Shown here piece by piece: positions 7,805-64,000 of a stretch of 64,000 nucleotides of DNA. Position numbers and translations under genes: made by a program. Source of the stretch: Fereydounia khargensis. Its lineage: Eukaryota; Basidiomycota; Ustilaginomycetes; Urocystidales; Fereydouniaceae. The stretch covers positions 60,611-124,610 of the forward strand of contig JAOCZO010000029.1 of assembly GCA_026413255.1 (NCBI GenBank), in the 5' to 3' direction. The notes under the pieces are model-generated. The model saw only the letters and a list, made by a program, of their open reading frames with translations, was not told where the DNA came from and did not search any database. The stretch's first letter is position 1. The number at the start of each line of letters is the position of its first letter.

Positions 7805-9730
7805 TGTGACGTTTATGGGTTGGGTAGAAAAAGTTCTGGAAGACAGACGAGGATTGGAGATGAGTCAGTTGGTCAAATAATCAGGAGAGGACATATCGGT
7901 GGGTTGCAGGTGGCAACCGTGCTGGAATCAACATGGCCTAGATCGACAGCCACAAAGGAGGCAGGTCGAGGCAGCACGGAGAGGAGAGTACCTCGATGCC
8001 ACCGTAGCATATCTGAGACTGAGCTGGACAGGCGAGGCGGCCCCGTGGCTGAATTTGGAGCGACCGGCCTAGGAAGCGCATGGACCGACCAAAGCCGAGG
8101 GCGTGTGACGGTGAGGGCGGCGGCTGGGTGAAGGCGATACCGCAATGGGAGATGAATACGAAGGAGACAGAAGATACTCACTCAAAGGAGGTTTGTAGGA
8201 TGGAAGAGGGAAAGGTTGACGGGGTCAAGTCAAAAACGGGATGAGAGAGTGTGATGTGGTTATGATAACAAGGTGTGCGAGCGACAGTTTACTGGAAAAG
8301 CGTAGGGAGAGGGGGGGACGGACCAGGGGGGAAAGAGGACCAAGGGCGACGGAAACGGGGCAGGGGGGAGGAACGAAGAGGGCAGACAGGCTCGCGGCCA
8401 GCTCACACGCGCATCCTCACGCACGCATGCACGCACACTCTCAACACGCAAAGGGCGAGATGTCCAGCGAAACACGACGGCCGTCGCTGGCTCTGGCTCT
8501 CTCCTCATTCAAGCTACGGTAGCTGTAACACAGATCACACCAACGCAAGACGCAAAACGCACTCTGCACAGCGCACTCTGCACACTACACTCACTCCATA
8601 GACGCTCCTGCTTGTGCTGTCGCTGTGTCTCTGCCCCTGGCAGGCGGCGGCGGCGGCGGCGCGGCGGGCGCGTTGGGAGATGAAACCGCCAGGGCCTGTG
8701 CGTTCTCACGAAACACACCATTCAGCGAGGCACGGAACAAGCTGTACGCGAGCCGTACGCAACTTTCGCCGAGGCCGACAACCGCTAGCAGCGCAACTTA
8801 CTCACACCAGGCCGGGGGCGGACGGGCGCGGGCTGCTTGCTGCAACAGAAGGGGAGGCGCGCATTGAGAAGGAAAAGAAACGGTTGGAAGGCGATCGAGC
8901 CAGCGAAACACACAGTTGCAAGCCGTTCGGTTCTGTCAAGGAGTGATGGGCGTGTGCATCTGCGTCAGCTTAGAGACAAAATGCCAGCAGCACACATCAC
9001 AGCGCTTGGGAGTGCGGCTGGCCAACGCGTTAGCGGATGGGATCGCGCGTCTGCACCGCATCACATCAGTCTCGTCTCGACTCGTCGGTGCGTCAGAGGG
9101 AAGAAGTGAGAGACGGGGGTGGCCTGGGCGTCGTCGTCGCGCCTCCGCTTGGCCAAGGTTTGTGTGGTGCGTCAGCGGACGCGGCCCCAAGCGCGAAGCG
9201 CGAAATCTTCCAGGCTCCTTTCCCCCTCGCCGAGCCCTCACCGCCTGCTCCACGTGGAAATTGGCAGGGAGAAAAAAAAAACCCTGAACCCACATCCTGA
9301 TTTCAATCCAGATGGACAAAATCTCGTCGCACTTTCCATGCCAAATGCCCTTTGTGAGCGATTTTTGTCAAAATTCGCACGAGTCAAGAAGGACGACTGG
9401 TTTTTCGGATCCTCACCGGGCCTGACGACACTGACAGCTTGGCACGTGACACTTAGAAGGTAGCGGAACTCTTTCGTGACAGGCAGACATTGGCAAAGGC
9501 ACACTGACCAGGGTACACGGAGTAGGACCAGACTGTTGTCCAACACTTCAGCGCGGCGCACGGCAAGAGAGACAGATGCGAATGAAGAGGAGAACAACAC
9601 AGTCATTAGTAGACGACAAGAGGCGCTTGAAAAACCTGTATGCAGTTGGTATTGGTACGAGGTGGAAATGAAGCCCGCATAGGCATTCACATCAGTGGCA
9701 TGATTAAAAGTCAGGCGATGGGTAATTAGT
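7805..9730. other. Long 5' region of the 14-3-3 gene with microsatellites
   Basis: About 1.9 kb between the 14-3-3 start and the Ran stop, without a recognisable coding region. On the minus strand there are good splice-like signals: a GTGAGT donor near 8180 and a TTCCAG acceptor near 7840. The 14-3-3 transcript may therefore have a leader intron; this is inference. A (GGC)n tract lies at about 8644-8661 and CA/GC-rich imperfect repeats at about 8405-8450. Several short ORFs here look like composition artefacts. Confidence 0.45.
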
Positions 9731-10829
9731 TTAGAGATCGCCGTCGTCCTCGTCGGGCAGAGGAGCAGCAGCAGCCTATTCATCGGGAGGGAAAGAAAGG
9801 GAAAATAGAGAGCAAGCAAGTCAGTTGGCTCGAACACCAAAGAAAGCAGGATCAAGCGTAGCCTGGCAGAAAAGTCACTTACAGCCTCGAGCTCGGCGTT
9901 GTACTGAGCCATAAGCTGCTCGTCGACCTTGACCTCGGGGGGAGCAAGGGCAGGGGCAGCGACAAACTCGAGAGTGGGGTTGCCAACGAGCTTGCGAGCG
10001 AGCCAGAGGAAGGGCTTCTCGAAGTTGTAGTTGGACTTGGCCGAGATCTCAAAGTACTGGAGGTTCTTCTTGCGGTGGAAGGTGACGGCGCCGGTCTTGA
10101 CCTTCCTCTCCTTGACGTCGACCTTGTTACCGCAAAGAACAATGGGGATGTTCTCGCAGACGCGCTCGAGATCACGGTGCCAGTTGGGGACGTTCTTGTA
10201 GGTGATTCGGCTGGTCACATCGAACATGATGATACCGCACTGTCCCTGGATGTAGTAACCATCACGGAGACCACCAAACTTCTCCTGTCCGGCAGTGTCC
10301 CAGACGTTGAAGCAGATGGTACCAAAGTTGGTGTGGAACTGAAGGGGGTGGACCTCGACACCAAGGGTGGCTATAGCAGTGAACAAGGACGGCGATTAAA
10401 TTGGTCAGGACGGAAGAACGCGGATTGGTAGACATAGCATGGTGACCTGTACTTACCGATGTACTTCTTCTCGAACTCTCCAGTCAAGTGGCGCTACAAG
10501 CAGAATGTCAGGAAAGAAAGAGGGCGCAAGGGTCAGTGTCCATTTTTGAGTGGCGGTCGGCCTTGGATCAAGAGCCTCGGATGGCCGGGCTGTCGCTCTG
10601 ACTTACCTTGACGAAGGTGGTCTTTCCTGTACCACCGTCACCGACTAAAGTAGGAGATGAAAAGGGTCGAAACGGTCAGTAACACAAGCAGGGATCGGGA
10701 CATTCTCCCCATCCCCCCAACCGCCTCGATTGTGGCGTGAATCAAAAAAGGCGATCAAAGGGAAATGGGAGCAACCAACTCACCGAGGACGAGCTTGAAG
10801 TTGGGGATCTCTTGCGCGGGAGCAGACAT
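9731..10829 (-). CDS. GSP1: Ran-family small GTPase (nuclear transport)
   Basis: Five exons: 10784-10829, 10607-10644, 10457-10493, 9883-10370 and 9731-9775, encoding 217 residues. Visible motifs are the P-loop GDGGTGKTT, switch I ending [22 protein letters not shown] (G3/switch II), NKVD (G4), [18 protein letters not shown] (G5 region) and the acidic Ran tail ending DEDDGDL. The tail is built by the last 45-nt exon, which has to be spliced on, because reading through the intron gives an unrelated extension. Ran drives directional nucleocytoplasmic transport and spindle assembly through its RCC1-generated GTP gradient. Exons 2 and 3 are only 38 and 37 nt. Upstream, a probable leader intron ends two bases before the ATG. 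Confidence 0.97.
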
Positions 10830-27429: not shown

Positions 27430-30400
27430 ATGACTCCTCTGCTAAAGCCTCGATCCTTGCTCATCTACGTCAGCCTACTGATCGCCTTCGTTCTGGCAAG
27501 CAGTCAAGATCCTTCCCAGTGCCTGTCTGTAGATCCCCAAGTCCAGGAGCCGATCCTCGGCCCGAATCAGCCAGGAGTTGCTCCAGAAGCATGTCGCAGG
27601 AGTCTCGTTCACCAAGCCGTTCTGGTAACCTTTTCCGAGGATGGCTATGCCGACAGTGTCTCTGATGTGCTCGCGTCTCTTCAAGACCGGCCTCCACCCC
27701 AACACGCAGATGCCAAGCTTGGCACTAACTCGAGCGACCGTGCATCCTGCGCGTTCCCATCTCGCCCTGAGCTGGCACAGTCTCCTCACTGTCAGGGAAG
27801 CCTTCCGGCTGACTTGCCATCTTATGCTAGATCGCTTTTCGATACCACCGTCGCCACAAATTCTTCATCGACGGGGACTTCAAGTCTGAGAGAAGCTCTG
27901 GCTCAACGCATCATTCTGCTCTATGCCAAAGTTGCGAATGTATGGCTCAATCGGACACGGACATCAAAGACACACGATTCTGCCCAAGACAGCTCTGTAT
28001 CAGCCATGGACTTTCGCAATCAGAGTACTCAGGCATCCTCATTTTGGATCGAACAGGTGGATCACAACGGTGCCGCATCCTTCAATCCGAGTCCAAATTC
28101 ATACAAGGTCTTTCGTAATGTAAAGGACTATGGAGCGGTCGGAGAGTGAGTTGATTTGGATCCTACAGATTTGACTCAAGCTTACCCACGAAACAAACAC
28201 GCCCCTCATCAGTGGTGTGACTGATGATACCAACGCCATCAATCTTGCCATCTCATTCGGAAGCCGTTGCGGTCCTGGCTGTGAAAGCGCCACCGTATCG
28301 CCAGCCTTGGTCTATTTTCCTCCCGGTGTCTATCTGATTTCATCGCCACTTCTATCTTACTACTATACACAGCTAGTCGGCAGTGCTACGGATCCTCCCA
28401 CACTTCTCGCTTCTTCAACTTTCCAGGGTATCGCCGTCATCGACGAGGATCCCTACTTGCCTGGCGGAGCTAACTGGTACATCAATCAGAACAACTTTTT
28501 CCGCGCTGTCTACAATTTCGTTATCGATCTCACGCAGATGCCGCCGTCCTCAGGGACAGGAATTCATCATCAAGTCAGCCAGGCCACAGGTCTCTTCAAT
28601 GTTCACTTCAGGATGCGTACAGACGATGGCAATCAGCAACAGGGAATTTTTATGGAGAATGGAAGTGGAGGCTTCATGGCAAACCTTTCCTTCTATGGCG
28701 GACGTTATGGTGCTGTGCTCGGCAATCAGCAGTTCACCTTCCGAGACAGTGTCTTTGAGGGCTGCAACACTGCCATCAACCAAGTTTGGTCATGGGGATG
28801 GACCTACTCTGATCTCCGGATCAAGAACTGCAAAGTCGCAATGGAGTTGAGGACGATAGCCGGCGCAAACTCGGGAGGGGATCAAGGCGCCGCTTCCTCT
28901 CTGATCACTGACTGGACCATCGAGAACACCCAGTTGGCTTTCAATCTTACCGCTCAGGATTCCGGTGTCTTGATTTTGGATAACGTCCAAATAAGCAACG
29001 TCCCCGATGTGGTCCGGTCTGGCGGCCAAACGATTCTTGAAGGATCAAGCAGCTCCAAGACCATTTCAAGTTGGGTCCAGGGCCCTGTGTACCTGGGAGA
29101 TGGGACTCTACAAAGGATCCAAGGGCCACTTGAAACCGAACCCGCTCGTCCAGAGTCTTTGATCAGAAAAGGCGACCCCCGAAAGCGGTGGTTTCAACGT
29201 AATCGACCTCAATACACCGATGAAGACGCCTCGGAGTTTGTCAACGTCAAGGACTTTGGCTGTGCAGGCGACGGTGAAACTGATGATACAGCCATGTTGC
29301 AAGCTATACTGGACCAGTGTGCAGGCTCAAAGATCATTTTCGGTGCGTCTCCATCGTCGCCCCTTTTTTCCTCCATCGTTGCCCCTCTTTTCCTTGCTTG
29401 ACACTGACTTTTCCTGCTGCATGTCTCGATCAACTTTGAAAGTGCCTCATGGAACATATATGCTGTATGACACTCTTTTCGTTCCTCCTGGGACACGAAT
29501 GGTCGGAGAAGCCTGGCCAGTTTTGATGGGGGCGGGACCGAGCTTTCAGAACCCATCCTCGCCGCGACCCGTCGTTCAGGTCGGCAAAAAGGGTGACACT
29601 GGAGTACTCGAAATCAGCGACATGGTCTTTTCGACGAGGGGTCCCGCACCTGGGGCAATTGTAGTTGAATGGAACATGCGCGAAGACGCTTCGATTCAAG
29701 GATCAGCCGGCATGTGGGACTCCCACATCCGCATCGGCGGTTTTGCTGGCACCCAGCTCGAGGCAGACAAATGCGCGAGAGAAGCTCCTCTCAGCGATGA
29801 CTGCCGAGCAAGCTTTTTGAATCTGCATCTCACAAAAACATCCAGCGCCTATCTCGAAAACGTGTGGATATGGACTGCGGATCATGACCTCGACTACGGC
29901 GAACGCGCACAGATTAACATTCTGTCGGGCAGAGGAGTTCTGATTGAATCTGCCGACGGACCGGTGTGGATGTACGGCACAGCCTCAGAGCATTCGGTGT
30001 TGTACCAGTACAATATCGTCAACGCAAGCAACGTCCTGGTTATGCTGGCCCAAATAGAGACCGCGTACTACCAAGGCCAAGGTCGAGAGACTGCCAGCGA
30101 GACTGAGGCTCTCGAATTGACAACATACCATGACCCAGACCTCGCCAAGCAGACAAACGAGTCCAGTCCGATATCAAACCCACAGGATCCTTACGAAAAT
30201 CGGGGTGTGGGTCTCCGAATTGCTGCATGCACCAACACCTTGATCTATGGTGCAGGTCTCTACTCATTCTTCGACAATTACAGTCAGGACTGCATCCCGT
30301 CGAGAACATGCCAAAAGCGGATCACCTGGGTCCAAAATCTTTCAAATGATTCGAATGTCTGGATTCTCAATCTCAACACGGTCGGCACCGAGAAGATGTT

Positions 30401-53353: not shown

Positions 53354-55532
53354 ATGCATCTTGGCGATACAGCCTTGGGCCAGACCCTGCGGGTGCTGAG
53401 CCGCGGCAAGCTGTTTGGCCATCTTGAGACGAGCGACCGGTGGCCGCCCAGCTGGCTGGCGCGGATGTCCTCCTCGGACCTTTCTCACGACGCCTCACTA
53501 GACAAACTTCCCTCGACTTCAGCCACTCCTTCCTGGCTGACGTGGACTTTGCTGTGGGATAATGCGCTGCAAAAGGCGCGCAACTCACCCTCGAAGACCT
53601 CGTCACAGCCTAAGGACGGCGGTTTCCAGTCACCGCGCGTAGTGACCGACGATGAGGTGCCCCGCGATGCGCTGGTGAGCTGGTACGGCCCCGACGATCC
53701 GGCCAACCCGCAGAACTGGAGCACCGCCACAAAAATCTACGTCACCGGCGTCATCTGCTTGTACACGTTTACCGTCTATCTCGGCTCGGCCATCTACACC
53801 CCCTCGATCCCAGGCGTGATGGAGCAGTTTGGCGTGTCGTACGCCGCGGCTAGCCTTGGCTTGTCGCTGTTTGTGTTTGGTTGTAAGTACTTCGCATTTT
53901 CCTGTTGCAAAAAGGCAAAAAGGAATGCTACCCCGTTCCTGCGCTCTGCCTGGCATCTGCATCCGTGCTGAGCTTGGCGTCATTCCTGTTGCCCTCTCCC
54001 CTCCTCATCGTTCTCTGCAGACGGCGCCGGTGCGATGCTCTTTTCTCCGCTTTCAGAGATCCCTTCGCTGGGGCGCAACTGGATCTACATCATCACATTC
54101 ACCATGTACCTTGCCCTTACCATCGGCTCGGCAGTGGTGCCCACCTACGGCGGGCTGATCACGCTGCGGCTGTTGGCAGGCTTTGTCGGCTCACCCGCGC
54201 TGGCCACAGGTGGTGCGACGCTAGGAGACATGCTAGACATTGTCAAGTTCCCGTACGCCATTGCGCTCTGGGTCGCCGCCGCTAGCATGGGTCCGGCGCT
54301 GGGCCCGGTGATGGGCGGCTTTGCGGCGACCGCCAAGACGTGGCGCTGGCCCATGTGGATCCAGGTCTGGCTGGTGGGGCCTGTGCTGATTGTCATGATC
54401 CTAACCCTCCCCGAAACCAGCGCTGCCAACATCCTGGTCCGTCGTGCTCGTCGGCTGCGCAGGATTACTGGAAACAAAAACCTCCGCTCCGAGGGCGAGA
54501 TCGAACAGAAGAAGCTCTCGGTTCGCAAGATGATTGTCGAGACCCTGGTTCGCCCCATCCAGATCTCCGTCCTAGACCCGGGAACCGGTTTCATCAATGC
54601 CTACGTCTCGCTCGTGTACGGCATCTACTACGTGAGTTTTCGGACGCAGGCTGAGCGGGGGCGCTGTGTACCATCAGGGGATTATCGCATGCTGACCTTT
54701 AGCCCACCTGGCCCATTGCGCTTTTGTTTCTGCTACGCTTCCATCAGTCGTTCTTCGAGAGCTTCCCGCTGATCTATCCGGTAATCTACGGCTTCAGTCT
54801 CGGTACCATGGGCCTCGCGTTTGTCTCAGTGGTGGTCACGACAGTGCTGGGCGCGGCAGGCTACATGTACTACGTCTACCACTACGTCGAGCCGCGCATC
54901 CGCACCTCGGGTCTGCCCCCTCTCGAGTCGCGCCTGATCCCGGCGATCCCGGCAAGCGTCCTGATGCCGATCGGCCTTTTTATCTTTGCCTGGACCTCTC
55001 GCGAGTCAGTGCACTGGATGGCGGGCCTGGTCGGCATTGGTATTTACAGCATCGGCTTTTACGTGTTCTTGCAGTGTGTGCTGCTCTACATTCCTCTGAT
55101 GGTGCGTTTCGATGCCCCCTTTCGCTTTCCCTCTCCTTCTCTATTGCTCTCTGCCATCTCGTGGTCAGTCAGCGGGCTAACCTCAATACCACAAAATCGG
55201 ATGTCTTTCCTTCTTTGCCATCCCCCAACCCAACCGACGCACAGTACCCCAAGTATGCCGCCTCGCTGCTTGCCGCAAACGACTTCTGCCGCTCCTCGCT
55301 AGCAGCCGGTATGGTGATGGCCGGTCATCCATTGTTCAAGAACCTGGGCATCGGTGCAGGCGTCTCGCTGCTCGCGGGGCTGACGTGCGTCTGCGTGCCG
55401 CTCCTGCTCCTCCTCTACAAGTACGGGCCCGTTCTGCGCGCCAAGTCCAAGTTTACCGACGTGCCGCCTGGCATGCAGCACGAGGTGGTTGGTGGTGAGG
55501 AGCGACGCGCGGATGCGGTGGAGAAGGCATGA
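53354..55532 (+). CDS. MFS drug/polyamine:H+ antiporter (DHA1/TPO-like exporter)
   Basis: Four exons, 53354-53882, 54021-54631, 54748-55101 and 55245-55532, encode 593 residues. A soluble N-terminus of about 120 residues, ending in SWYGPDDPANPQNWSTATK (the DPxNPxNW motif of fungal DHA1 transporters), precedes about 12 membrane segments. Examples are IYVTGVICLYTFTVYLGSAI, SLGLSLFVFGYGAGAMLFSP and LLAGFVGSPALATGGATLGD. LSEIPSLGRNWIYI contains the loop 2-3 MFS motif. Splicing restores FVFG/YGAGAM and LVYGIYY/SFFESFPLIY. The family exports drugs, polyamines or metabolites from the plasma membrane or vacuole. A later Met (MSSSDLSHD) is an alternative start. The substrate is unknown; it follows the reductase on the same strand. 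Confidence 0.9.
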
Positions 55533-56120: not shown

Positions 56121-56224
56121 TGACAAGAGTGGGATTCGAACCCACGCCCGAAGATAGCAGGTACCCTCGAATGCTCGAGGTATCTTCCTTAATGCTACGC
56201 CTTAGACCACTCGGCCATCTTGCC
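56121..56224 (-). tRNA. tRNA-Leu (anticodon AAG), intron-containing
   Basis: On the minus strand the sequence folds as a class II tRNA of 104 nt including an intron. The acceptor stem is GGCAAGA paired with TCTTGTC (one G-U), with discriminator A at 56121. The D-arm is GGCCGAGTGGTCTAAGGC and the anticodon stem TAGCA/TGCTA. The anticodon AAG is at 56188-56190 (reads CUU Leu) and the T-arm is GTGGG TTCGAAT CCCAC. A 26-nt intron (56161-56186) follows position 37 and contains a CCTCGA/TCGAGG hairpin. The variable arm is short for Leu. It should be transcribed by Pol III with the internal A and B boxes. Confidence 0.9.
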
Positions 56225-59527: not shown

Positions 59528-59535
59528 TATAAAAG
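59528..59535 (+). promoter_or_regulatory. TATA box of the cysteine-repeat protein gene
   Basis: TATAAAAG lies about 100 bases before the MKISIT start codon. Because an in-frame ATG sits immediately after it (59536), translation from that ATG is unlikely and the start at 59638 is preferred. Confidence 0.6.
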
Positions 59536-59637: not shown

Positions 59638-60561
59638 ATGAAGATCTCCATCACCTCGCTCTTTGTTCTTGGTATGGCCGCGATTACAGCTGCCACCCCT
59701 GTCCTCCAGGACACGGAGGCTGCTCAAGTGCTCGCCGAACGCGGCCATCCTCGTAATGGCGGTGCTCCCTGCAAGTGGGACTGGCAGTGCAAGAGCCACG
59801 AGTGCACAACGTCTTGGGACCACAAGGAGAAAAAGTCGAAGGGTACTTGTACCTGGCCCAAGCTCAAGTACGGTAGCGTGTGCAAGTGGGACAAGCAATG
59901 CAAGACTGGTCGTTGTGACAAGCTCTACCCATGGGACAAGGACGAGGTCTGCTTGTGGCCTCGTTTCGAAGACGGAAGGGACTGCAAAGCCAACAGCCAG
60001 TGCATCTCTGACAGTTGCCGCCACAGCAAGTGTCGCAAAAAGTGGGAGCCTCTGGACCTGGGCAAGGAGTGTAAATGGGACAAGCAATGCAAATCAGGCC
60101 TCTGCGCTGAAGACAAGGCCAGCCATAGGAAGGTTTGCACTAAACCGCTGAAGGACAACGGCGAATGGTGCAAAGAAGCCAAGGACTGCAAGTCCAATCA
60201 TTGCGACAGACATCATAAGTGCGCAGACAAGCCGGCTTTGCCCAAGCCCAAGGGAATTGGCGAATGGTGCTGGCAAGACAAGCAGTGCAAATCTGAATTC
60301 TGCGGACCGGAGCACAAGTGCGCCGAAAAGCCAGTCCATCCTAAGGAACTCGGCGAATGGTGCTGGGAGAACAAGCAGTGCAGGTCTGAGTTCTGCGGGC
60401 CCGAGCACAAATGCGCAACAAAGCCAGCTCCGTCCAAGCTTGATGACGGCAAACCTTGCACCAAGGATGAAGAATGCAACAGTGGCCATTGCGGCAATAG
60501 TAGGCCGGAAGCCCGGAACCCGCCAAGCAAAGTCTGCAAGCCCAAGGCGCCCACTGCCTAA
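59638..60561 (+). CDS. Secreted cysteine-repeat protein, eight four-cysteine modules (candidate effector or wall protein)
   Basis: One exon of 307 residues. MKISITSLFVLGMAAITAA is a clear signal peptide; an Asp/Glu/Ala pro-like segment follows. The rest consists of eight modules of about 30-38 residues, each C-x5-C-x4-C-x(4-14)-C. Examples are CKWDWQCKSHEC, CKWDKQCKTGRC, CWQDKQCKSEFCGPEHKC and CTKDEECNSGHC. That makes 32 module cysteines. Modules 5-7 are nearly identical (C-x5-C-x4-C-x5-C), suggesting recent duplication. The linkers are Pro/Lys-rich with no membrane segment or GPI signal. The C-x5-C-x4-C pattern recalls disulphide-rich Dickkopf-like modules, but I know no matching family. Its subtelomeric position and repeats suit a host- or environment-facing secreted protein. 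Function is not shown. In-frame upstream residues from 59536 are judged untranslated. Confidence 0.85.
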   Translation: MKISITSLFVLGMAAITAATPVLQDTEAAQVLAERGHPRNGGAPCKWDWQCKSHECTTSWDHKEKKSKGTCTWPKLKYGSVCKWDKQCKTGRCDKLYPWDKDEVCLWPRFEDGRDCKANSQCISDSCRHSKCRKKWEPLDLGKECKWDKQCKSGLCAEDKASHRKVCTKPLKDNGEWCKEAKDCKSNHCDRHHKCADKPALPKPKGIGEWCWQDKQCKSEFCGPEHKCAEKPVHPKELGEWCWENKQCRSEFCGPEHKCATKPAPSKLDDGKPCTKDEECNSGHCGNSRPEARNPPSKVCKPKAPTA

Positions 60562-62087: not shown

Positions 62088-63818
62088 ATGTCAGAGCAAC
62101 ACCGAGGCTCTGTTACCTCAGTTAGCGCTGGCTCTATCACTGCAGCTGCCCATCCACACCAGCCGCACCATCTCAAGTACGGACAAGTCCAGGCGGCTGG
62201 TTTCTACCCGGACGACTCAGACTTGGAGGGCAATGACAATGCTAATGACAATGACAACATCAAGCCCGCCACCTCTCCCACAAGCGGCAATGACACCGCC
62301 TTCCAGTCATCCAGCAGACAGCAGGCTTCAAGCGCACTCTCTGATGCCAAGGCACGTCGATACCGCCTCATGGAGCGTCAGGATGCGCAGAGCCGCGCAC
62401 TCCACCAGGAGAGGCGCTACCTATTCCGCCGACCGCGTCCTCTCCAGTACTTTCGTGACAATGTCCTCGTACGATCTGAGGATGAGCGCTCCTCTCACCG
62501 TCTCGAGCTCTTCTTTGATCTCGTCTTTGTTGGTCTAATTGCCACATTGGCCGAAGAGGCCATCCACGAGCACAACGCCGACGCCATCGGCCGCTACATC
62601 CTCACCTACACCGCCGCCTGGATGGTCTGGAACTACATGCGCGAGATCTTTAACGCCTTCTTCGTTGACGATCTCCCACAGCGCGTCCTCGTGCTCGGCG
62701 TTATGGCTGCGCTTGTCGTTTATGGCAACAATGCGCCATCTGCTGAGGAGTTGCTGGACGAGTCTGGCGCACGGGCCGCTGCGATCGGCTCCTACCTTGT
62801 GGCGGGCGGCTTGATCTTTGGCATCATGACCTTTTACTCGTTCTACATCTGCCAGTACCGAATCCAGATCCGCGCGCAGGCCTCCGTCTGGGTGCTCGTG
62901 CTCGGTCTCTGGATCGGAAGCATCTTTGTCTCGGTCCGCGCGTGTGTCGTCATGGTAGCCGTGGCGCTTGCAGTCGAGTACACCTCGTGGATGTTCTTCT
63001 ACAGTCCGCTATTCAAGAAAATGGCCAAGCTGCGCTACTCGTCCGCGGTGGCAATCGAGCACGAGATTGACCGGTGTACCGACTTTGTGACGCTGGTCCA
63101 TGGCGAGTTCCTGTACAGCGTGCTAAGTGGGCAGCCGGCGGGCCACGGGATCCACTCTGGCGTCGCGCGTGTCGTCCTGACCGTAGTCATTGCATTTGTC
63201 CTACACGGCATGTACTGCTGCGGCGCCGGGAGCAAGCTTGTGCTGCACCCGCTTCGGCGAAGCATGGCGGGGGCCATTACATGGTTCACGTTCCACCTCC
63301 CTCTTGTGTCGGCGTTAACGCTATGTGGCGACAGCACGGCTGAGCTGGTTCGAGAGAACGAGGTGGCGCAGAGCGTGCGCTGGATCTTTGCAGCCACGTA
63401 CGCAATCAGCTTGGTATCTACCGTGGTGCTCCTTGCTATTGAGACGGAGCTCGATCGCCCCGGCGAGCTCTTCCTCAGCAAGCCAGTACGAATCGCTCCG
63501 CGTCTCATCGCTGCGCTCATTGTTCTCCTCCTCCCGCTCGCGGACCAGGAACATATCAACTCGACGGCCCTCCTCGGCATTGCCGCCGCGCTCGGCGCCG
63601 CTGCCTGGATCTGGCAGGAGATTGGGGCCCTTGACGGCCCCAATGCCGACTGGTACATCCAGCCCTCCGACTCTCCCGCAACCGGCGGATTGCGAAGCTG
63701 GTCCGGCTTCCCCATCCTTGTAGAACCGGACGCATTCAAGCTCGACCACATGCACCAGCGAGGCTGTACTGCCACAGTTCTGGGAAGACCAACCCAACCT
63801 CCGGGAAACTCCGCGTAG
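62088..63818 (+). CDS. LtrA-family (low temperature requirement A) membrane protein
   Basis: One uninterrupted exon of 576 residues starting MSEQHRGSVTSVSAGS. A polar N-terminus of about 110 residues with an Asn/Asp run (GNDNANDNDN) precedes the LtrA core. That core begins HRLELFFDLVFVGLIATLAE, the family hallmark, and continues WMVWNYMREIFNAFFVDDLP and multiple hydrophobic helices (about eight to ten). LtrA proteins are widespread in bacteria and fungi, with no established biochemical activity. The C-terminal segment after the last helix is soluble. The stop codon is about 96 bases before the first telomeric repeat, so this is the last gene of the chromosome arm in this sequence. Confidence 0.88.
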   Translation: MSEQHRGSVTSVSAGSITAAAHPHQPHHLKYGQVQAAGFYPDDSDLEGNDNANDNDNIKPATSPTSGNDTAFQSSSRQQASSALSDAKARRYRLMERQDAQSRALHQERRYLFRRPRPLQYFRDNVLVRSEDERSSHRLELFFDLVFVGLIATLAEEAIHEHNADAIGRYILTYTAAWMVWNYMREIFNAFFVDDLPQRVLVLGVMAALVVYGNNAPSAEELLDESGARAAAIGSYLVAGGLIFGIMTFYSFYICQYRIQIRAQASVWVLVLGLWIGSIFVSVRACVVMVAVALAVEYTSWMFFYSPLFKKMAKLRYSSAVAIEHEIDRCTDFVTLVHGEFLYSVLSGQPAGHGIHSGVARVVLTVVIAFVLHGMYCCGAGSKLVLHPLRRSMAGAITWFTFHLPLVSALTLCGDSTAELVRENEVAQSVRWIFAATYAISLVSTVVLLAIETELDRPGELFLSKPVRIAPRLIAALIVLLLPLADQEHINSTALLGIAAALGAAAWIWQEIGALDGPNADWYIQPSDSPATGGLRSWSGFPILVEPDAFKLDHMHQRGCTATVLGRPTQPPGNSA

Positions 63819-63914: not shown

Positions 63915-63955
<41 letters not shown>

Positions 63956-64000
63956 GGTTAGGGTTAGGGTTAGGGTTAGGGTTAGGGTTAGGGTTAGGGT
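63915..64000 (+). repeat. Telomere: TTAGGG repeat array
   Basis: About 14 TTAGGG units run to the window end, with one TTTAGGG variant at about 63932-63938. The G-rich strand runs 5' to 3' toward the end, the correct orientation for a right chromosome terminus. TTAGGG is the common telomere unit of filamentous fungi and basidiomycetes. Confidence 0.98.

Follow-up and report, generated by a model that had tools for sequence, protein, structure and literature searches.

What might be the task of a predicted secreted protein whose cysteines all fall into eight small tandem modules, and which curated family libraries do not recognise? The question is raised by a gene close to the telomeric end of a 64,000-nucleotide stretch of Fereydounia khargensis DNA (hereafter the window), taken from the right end of a contig of 124,610 bases in an assembly of 10.46 Mb and 40 contigs that looks fungal by gene content and telomere. 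We put at about one half the probability that this focal protein, predicted to be secreted, uses its disulfide-locked modules to bind at many points a polymer outside the cell, chitin or a cell-wall glycan being the most plausible. This reading is directed at chitin or the wall because a GH18 chitinase of this genome ends in a tail of such modules, and a shared task of holding on to something is suggested by the module's occurrence both on unlike enzyme domains and alone in long arrays.

The focal gene is real. An earlier note on this DNA, made from the letters alone, had described a single-exon gene with a signal peptide. The frame indeed runs uninterrupted on the forward strand without need of an intron, an open frame of 308 codons having a chance probability of about 1e-6 at the local composition, and its hydrophobic N-terminus reads as a signal peptide by hydropathy only (the calls for all module proteins were made by hydropathy or by eye). 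The gene and its modules, as delimited in the window, are as follows.

59528..59533, forward strand: TATAAA element, a candidate core promoter by pattern match, 110 bases 5' of the start codon
59638..60561, forward strand: coding frame of the eight-module protein, 307 amino acids, uninterrupted
59638..59694, forward strand: predicted signal peptide, about residues 1-19, from hydropathy with the cleavage site placed by eye
59770..59850, forward strand: module 1, residues 45-71, loops 5,4,14 (spacing, module HMM)
59983..60033, forward strand: module 3, residues 116-132, loops 5,4,4 (spacing, module HMM, fold search)
60169..60222, forward strand: module 5, residues 178-195, loops 5,4,5 (spacing, module HMM, fold search)
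60268..60321, forward strand: module 6, residues 211-228, loops 5,4,5, a near-copy of module 7 (repeat, spacing, HMM)
60361..60414, forward strand: module 7, residues 242-259, loops 5,4,5, a near-copy of module 6 (repeat, spacing, HMM)
60457..60537, forward strand: module 8, residues 274-300, loops 5,4,14, aligning with knottin-type peptides (spacing, HMM, fold search)

All 32 cysteines of the protein are used by eight modules of the pattern C-x5-C-x4-C-x(4-14)-C, whose starts are spaced 29 to 37 residues apart. The regular cysteine spacing that had been claimed applies to the first two loops, which measure 5 and 4 residues in every module; the third loop is irregular (14, 11, 4, 10, 5, 5, 5 and 14 residues from module 1 to module 8). 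None of 20,000 shuffles of the mature sequence contained more than three C-x5-C-x4-C matches. Modules 6 and 7 form a tandem repeat with a period of 93, and the near-identical motif CKSEFCGPEHKC/CRSEFCGPEHKC, previously ascribed to modules 5, 6 and 7 alike, is restricted to these two; module 5 reads CKSNHCDRHHKC and is more distant from both. The array is rich in lysine (17.6%) and cysteine (12.2%), has a pI of 8.75 and contains 14 tryptophans, compared with 0 to 6 in eight other arrays that were measured. Kex2-type KR or RR sites, as in a processed repeat peptide, were absent from the focal protein.

The module copies differ more at synonymous than at non-synonymous sites in all compared pairs, from which we infer a constrained protein. 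The closest pair, modules 6 and 7, gave a pS of 0.63 and a pN of 0.11; values were 0.81 and 0.29 for modules 5 and 6, 0.66 and 0.35 for 5 and 7, 1.01 and 0.28 for 4 and 2, and 0.83 and 0.40 for 1 and 2. Such a pattern is as would be expected of a protein that works. The earlier note had suggested a fast-evolving protein; within the gene, non-synonymous change between modules 6 and 7 is low.

Searches with the focal protein (P0001) itself returned little. Pfam and NCBIfam scans gave nothing above threshold, PDB sequences gave no match at E<=10, and none of 156 candidates from a direct search of 5.8 billion proteins reached E<=1e-3. The earlier note had recognised no known family with this layout, which is right for the curated libraries, but the module has further carriers: at least three other genes of this genome and 47 database proteins. 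Judged by its sequence, the focal protein is not an orphan: it is homologous to modules in the same genome and in the database. The other module genes of the genome, whose number is a lower bound drawn from the best-scoring candidates, lie on contigs that we call C17, C21 and C39.

C21:227292-229673 (locus L008:1489-3870), reverse strand: GH18 chitinase (P0006) with a module tail, predicted secreted, 793 amino acids (PF00704, E 4.7e-86)
C17 (locus L028:7476-9884): array protein of at least 802 amino acids, open-ended at the contig end
C39 (locus L026:1760-4921): predicted secreted protein of 1,053 amino acids, four modules at first, then DUF7029 and DUF7223, and a C-terminus rich in glycine

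The chitinase consists of the GH18 domain, a Ser/Thr-rich linker and 12 modules at the C-terminus, which in GH18-type enzymes is often the site of binding domains. This arrangement lends support to the earlier note's suggestion that the focal protein may serve in adhesion or bind chitin. In a second record of the chitinase (P0008) the first 414 residues carry two substitutions, the linker is six residues longer and of different composition, and the 331-residue array is identical. One other GH18 place was found in the genome, without an array. The C17 array counts 26 modules by strict spacing and 28 by HMM, and its near-identical module pairs probably broke the assembly. Membership is weakest for the C39 gene, at 17.5-19.9 bits with the module HMM.

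That HMM was built from 253 bacterial-type modules and contains no fungal module; the protist protein P0042, the duplicates P0003 and P0008 and the weak hits P0046, P0047, P0048, P0050, P0051 and P0052 were kept out, and the source proteins had been found by a profile that included the fungal arrays P0002 and P0006 and not P0001. It scores the focal protein at 64.5 bits with eight domains, one per module, whereas the best of 200 shuffles with the cysteines fixed reached 11.8 bits. When 2,670 open frames of the window and of fetched, partly overlapping loci were scored (focal E 2.3e-18), only frames of the four module genes exceeded 10 bits, the next best being another frame inside the chitinase gene at 9.6.

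A wider family came from the arrays. Residues 360-802 of the C17 array, used as a query, matched two foreign proteins, namely a 542-residue array (E 7.9e-30) and a dipeptidase of the M19 family that ends in modules (E 8.5e-14), as well as a piece of the C17 array itself. A search with module arrays as a profile, which the earlier note had proposed, used parts of P0004, P0005, P0002 and P0006 without the focal protein and gave 47 proteins at E<=1e-3 among 4,452 candidates. Two of them are the input P0004 and P0008, the second record of the chitinase; the list is not exhaustive, since P0003, known from the C17 query, is absent. Most look bacterial, an assignment made from look and source, with a single named organism (P0015, from a Deltaproteobacteria metagenome-assembled genome); P0042 comes from a protist collection. 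Sixteen of the 47 are array-only, with fewer than 150 residues outside the array, and 31 carry another region. Partners recognised by Pfam among the 31 include GH18 (P0008), peptidase M19 (P0010, P0031), papain C1 (P0033, P0035), FG-GAP with an astacin-like stretch (P0018) and M10 (P0050). The partner is unrecognised in many, and an HExxH-like pattern, which is not a family test, occurs in nine. We also observed that the M19 dipeptidase with a C-terminal module array is a recurrent fusion (P0010, P0031, P0005).

Across the family (P0002-P0052) the module reads as a tandem C-x5-C-x4/5-C-x3..18-C, and the focal protein fits, all eight of its modules having loops of 5, 4 and a variable third. In the other database proteins the first loop is 5 in 307 and the second 4 in 262 of 329 modules, counted with a pattern that admitted only 5-6 and 4-5 residues respectively. 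For seven of the eight focal modules the best bacterial-type neighbour scored above the best from other fungal modules, with a tie for the eighth, so that the focal modules did not group with the other fungal ones; because 308 of the 372 compared modules are bacterial-type, these scores favour no direction of transfer. Patterns of bacterial-type modules were also run in two scans against 84,980 prokaryote species genomes. The scans gave 46 and 18 matching stretches, and none of these was confirmed; either the carriers lie outside this genome set or the patterns missed them.

Structure prediction, also proposed in the earlier note, gave models in which a module resembles knottin-type peptides and a module pair resembles colipase or Dickkopf, with weak scores. 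In the fold search module 8 of the focal model aligned with knottin peptides, among them inhibitor cystine knot (ICK) peptides and a hairpinless atracotoxin mutant, and module pairs aligned with colipase, Dkk1 and MIT1; the single-peptide matches fall mainly on module 8, other single modules being barely covered. The model of a bacterial-type protein shows the same repeating element, its module pairs align with colipase, Draxin and MIT1, and the alignments of the two models share relatives. The array of the focal model contains no helix of four residues or more.

These observations suggest how the protein could work. Each module is predicted to be a small hairpin whose two disulfides would join C1 to C3 and C2 to C4, as in disulfide-directed hairpin (DDH) peptides, an arrangement that the fold search suggests, and neighbouring modules would pack as colipase/Dickkopf-like pairs. 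Weak contacts of single modules may then sum along the array; avidity of this sort is how proteins with tandem cysteine-rich repeats are proposed to act in the available part of PMC6262176. On the chitinase the array would keep the enzyme on its substrate, while the stand-alone focal array could form a coat on, or cross-links in, the wall or some other surface; its lysines and tryptophans would suit sugar stacking and contact with anionic polymers. In the bacterial-looking proteins the ligand may differ, the recognised partners being mostly peptidases.

Other explanations have to be weighed against a polymer binder. It is possible but unlikely that the array serves above all to hold enzymes, as a rigid stalk or spacer that resists proteases, or on its own forms a coat layer, with no specific ligand. 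Module numbers ranging from 1 to 26 by strict spacing on a fixed cysteine frame, the diversity of partner domains, and the two chitinase records, which share one and the same array but have Ser/Thr linkers of unequal length, would all suit such a part. A stalk is harder to reconcile with the 16 of 47 relatives that are array-only and with the focal protein itself, which has no partner to hold off, and with modules 6 and 7, in which residues other than cysteine are retained (pN 0.11, pS 0.63). We regard it as improbable that the modules are protease inhibitors, or inhibitor-like decoys, directed at enzymes secreted by a host, by prey or by the fungus itself: knottin-like folds serve many functions, the third loop varies in length and sequence across the eight modules, and it is not obvious why a chitinase should be fused to an inhibitor.

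We give as little credence to the idea that a pathogenic fungus directs the protein at its host as an effector or toxin; the earlier note had named an effector as one possibility. The focal protein does combine predicted secretion, many cysteines, repeats and a subtelomeric position, and Venturia Cin1, a secreted cysteine-rich protein of eight repeats, is described as inducible in planta in the available sections of PMC9632046 and PMC4617103. The module family is, however, spread over bacterial-looking proteins and one protein from a protist collection. We know of no link of these carriers to a host. Because the module is spread over bacterial-looking proteins with hydrolase domains, a general extracellular module is favoured. 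That the frame is a chance opening or a decayed pseudogene is very improbable; the lack of a direct match to P0001 among the 5.8 billion proteins would fit, but every module is homologous to others, the frame is intact and its copies diverge mostly at synonymous sites.

If the polymer-binding reading is pushed further, the module may be an unrecognised carbohydrate- or wall-binding family on the scaffold that colipase, Dickkopf and venom peptides have in animals, with gene transfer between fungi and bacteria, and the focal protein a stand-alone, lectin-like wall coat consisting of this module alone. We hold this extension tentatively, as a speculation. A module that escapes the curated libraries in these proteins would explain at one stroke a set of secreted proteins, so far uncharacterised, from a fungus and from bacteria, and its place on a chitinase offers a direct way to test its ligand. 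Were glycan binding true, the module would be a new family of binding modules whose scaffold is familiar chiefly from toxins and signalling proteins of animals, and would provide a compact, stable building block.

The surroundings of the focal gene, in window coordinates, are the following.

53972-54769: piece of an MFS transporter gene, upstream of the focal gene
56121-56224: tRNA, upstream of the focal gene
62088..63818, forward strand: LtrA-family gene (PF06772, by Pfam), between the focal gene and the telomere, the last recognised gene
63915..64000, forward strand: telomeric TTAGGG array at the contig end, a repeat found in the window

The focal gene is the second-last recognised gene before the TTAGGG telomere, with the LtrA gene 1.5 kb downstream. 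The earlier description of a gene-poor subtelomere is borne out by the repeat at 63915-64000 and is correct only in part as to gene content, since a recognised LtrA gene, a tRNA and the MFS piece flank the locus. No TTAGGG array was found at either end of C17, C21 or C39, and so the focal gene is the only module gene shown to be subtelomeric. Elsewhere in the window we noted a frame for a Ras-superfamily GTPase, Ran-like in look and perhaps more basidiomycete than ascomycete in sequence (9241-10395, reverse strand), and a pectate-lyase-like beta-helix protein (28175-29398; PF12708, 8e-84), probably with an intron just upstream, which we take to be GH55-like.

In architecture the focal protein belongs to a known kind, the tandem cysteine-rich repeat proteins. 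Like the SCREPs it is (by prediction) secreted, cysteine-rich and made of tandem repeats of one domain type. As far as the available part of PMC6262176 goes, SCREPs have bacterial and eukaryotic members, are proposed to act through avidity, and represent an architecture, not one homologous family, the functionally tested members being mostly two-domain toxins and protease inhibitors; the main text of that paper contains no word starting with "fung".

At the level of the single module, DDH and ICK peptides share the four-cysteine unit, and the disulfide pairing I-III, II-IV given for KASH2 in the accessible part of PMC11891777 is the one expected for the module. These peptides occur in arachnids and a sea star, whereas the module stands in tandem arrays in fungal and bacterial-looking hosts. 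The DDH consensus is C-x5-19-C-x2-[GP]-x2-C-x6-19-C. We did not file the module there: its second loop is 4 in all eight focal modules against 5 in the consensus, and the third reaches at least 6 in four of eight. The Pfam family Colipase (PF01114) was likewise rejected, the focal protein scoring 9.4 bits (E 1.1) against a cut-off of 27. The focal protein differs from colipase, Dickkopf and MIT1-prokineticin in its four cysteines per module and its long arrays, and no lipase was found among the partner domains of module proteins.

EB (PF01683), DUF7107 (PF23416) and UPF0506 (PF11703) are small cysteine-rich families, as the focal module is. None of them rose above its cut-off in the four module proteins of the genome: for EB (24.3 bits) the focal protein was unlisted at E<=10 and P0002 scored 21.4, for DUF7107 (24.6 bits) the focal protein was again unlisted at E<=10, and for UPF0506 (23.2 bits) the focal protein scored 12.3, P0002 15 and the chitinase 22.6. 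Among relatives, EB was above cut-off in P0017 and DUF7107 in P0039. An effector of the LysM (PF01476) or hevein (PF00187) chitin-binding type was also rejected, neither domain being listed for the focal protein at E<=10. LysM matched one protein of the genome; hevein and CBM1 (PF00734) had no match in it, and control genomes gave none either.

Venturia Cin1 is likewise secreted, cysteine-rich and built of eight repeats. In the available sections of PMC4617103 and PMC9632046 its repeats are 52-64 residues long, form helix-loop-helix units in a three-helix bundle and are reported to be Venturia-specific. The focal repeats lie 29 to 37 residues apart and their model lacks a helix of four residues or more, and we rejected this assignment. 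The literature searched contained no description of the module in a fungus, and the nearest account is that of rusticalin-type repeats, available in part (PMC7379824). These are multi-copy cysteine-rich modules, 301 of 382 proteins being fungal, attached partly to wall-lytic enzymes, with partners that include phage lysozyme, amidase and peptidase M15, and horizontal transfer has been proposed for them. The rusticalin repeat has Gly at 10, 21, 26 and 30 and Pro at 29 and 31, a Pro/Gly run that the focal module lacks; the two were set apart by this published description and not by a profile. As cysteine-rich modules found in fungi, in part on wall-lytic enzymes, rusticalin-type repeats are the closest published parallel to the family described here.
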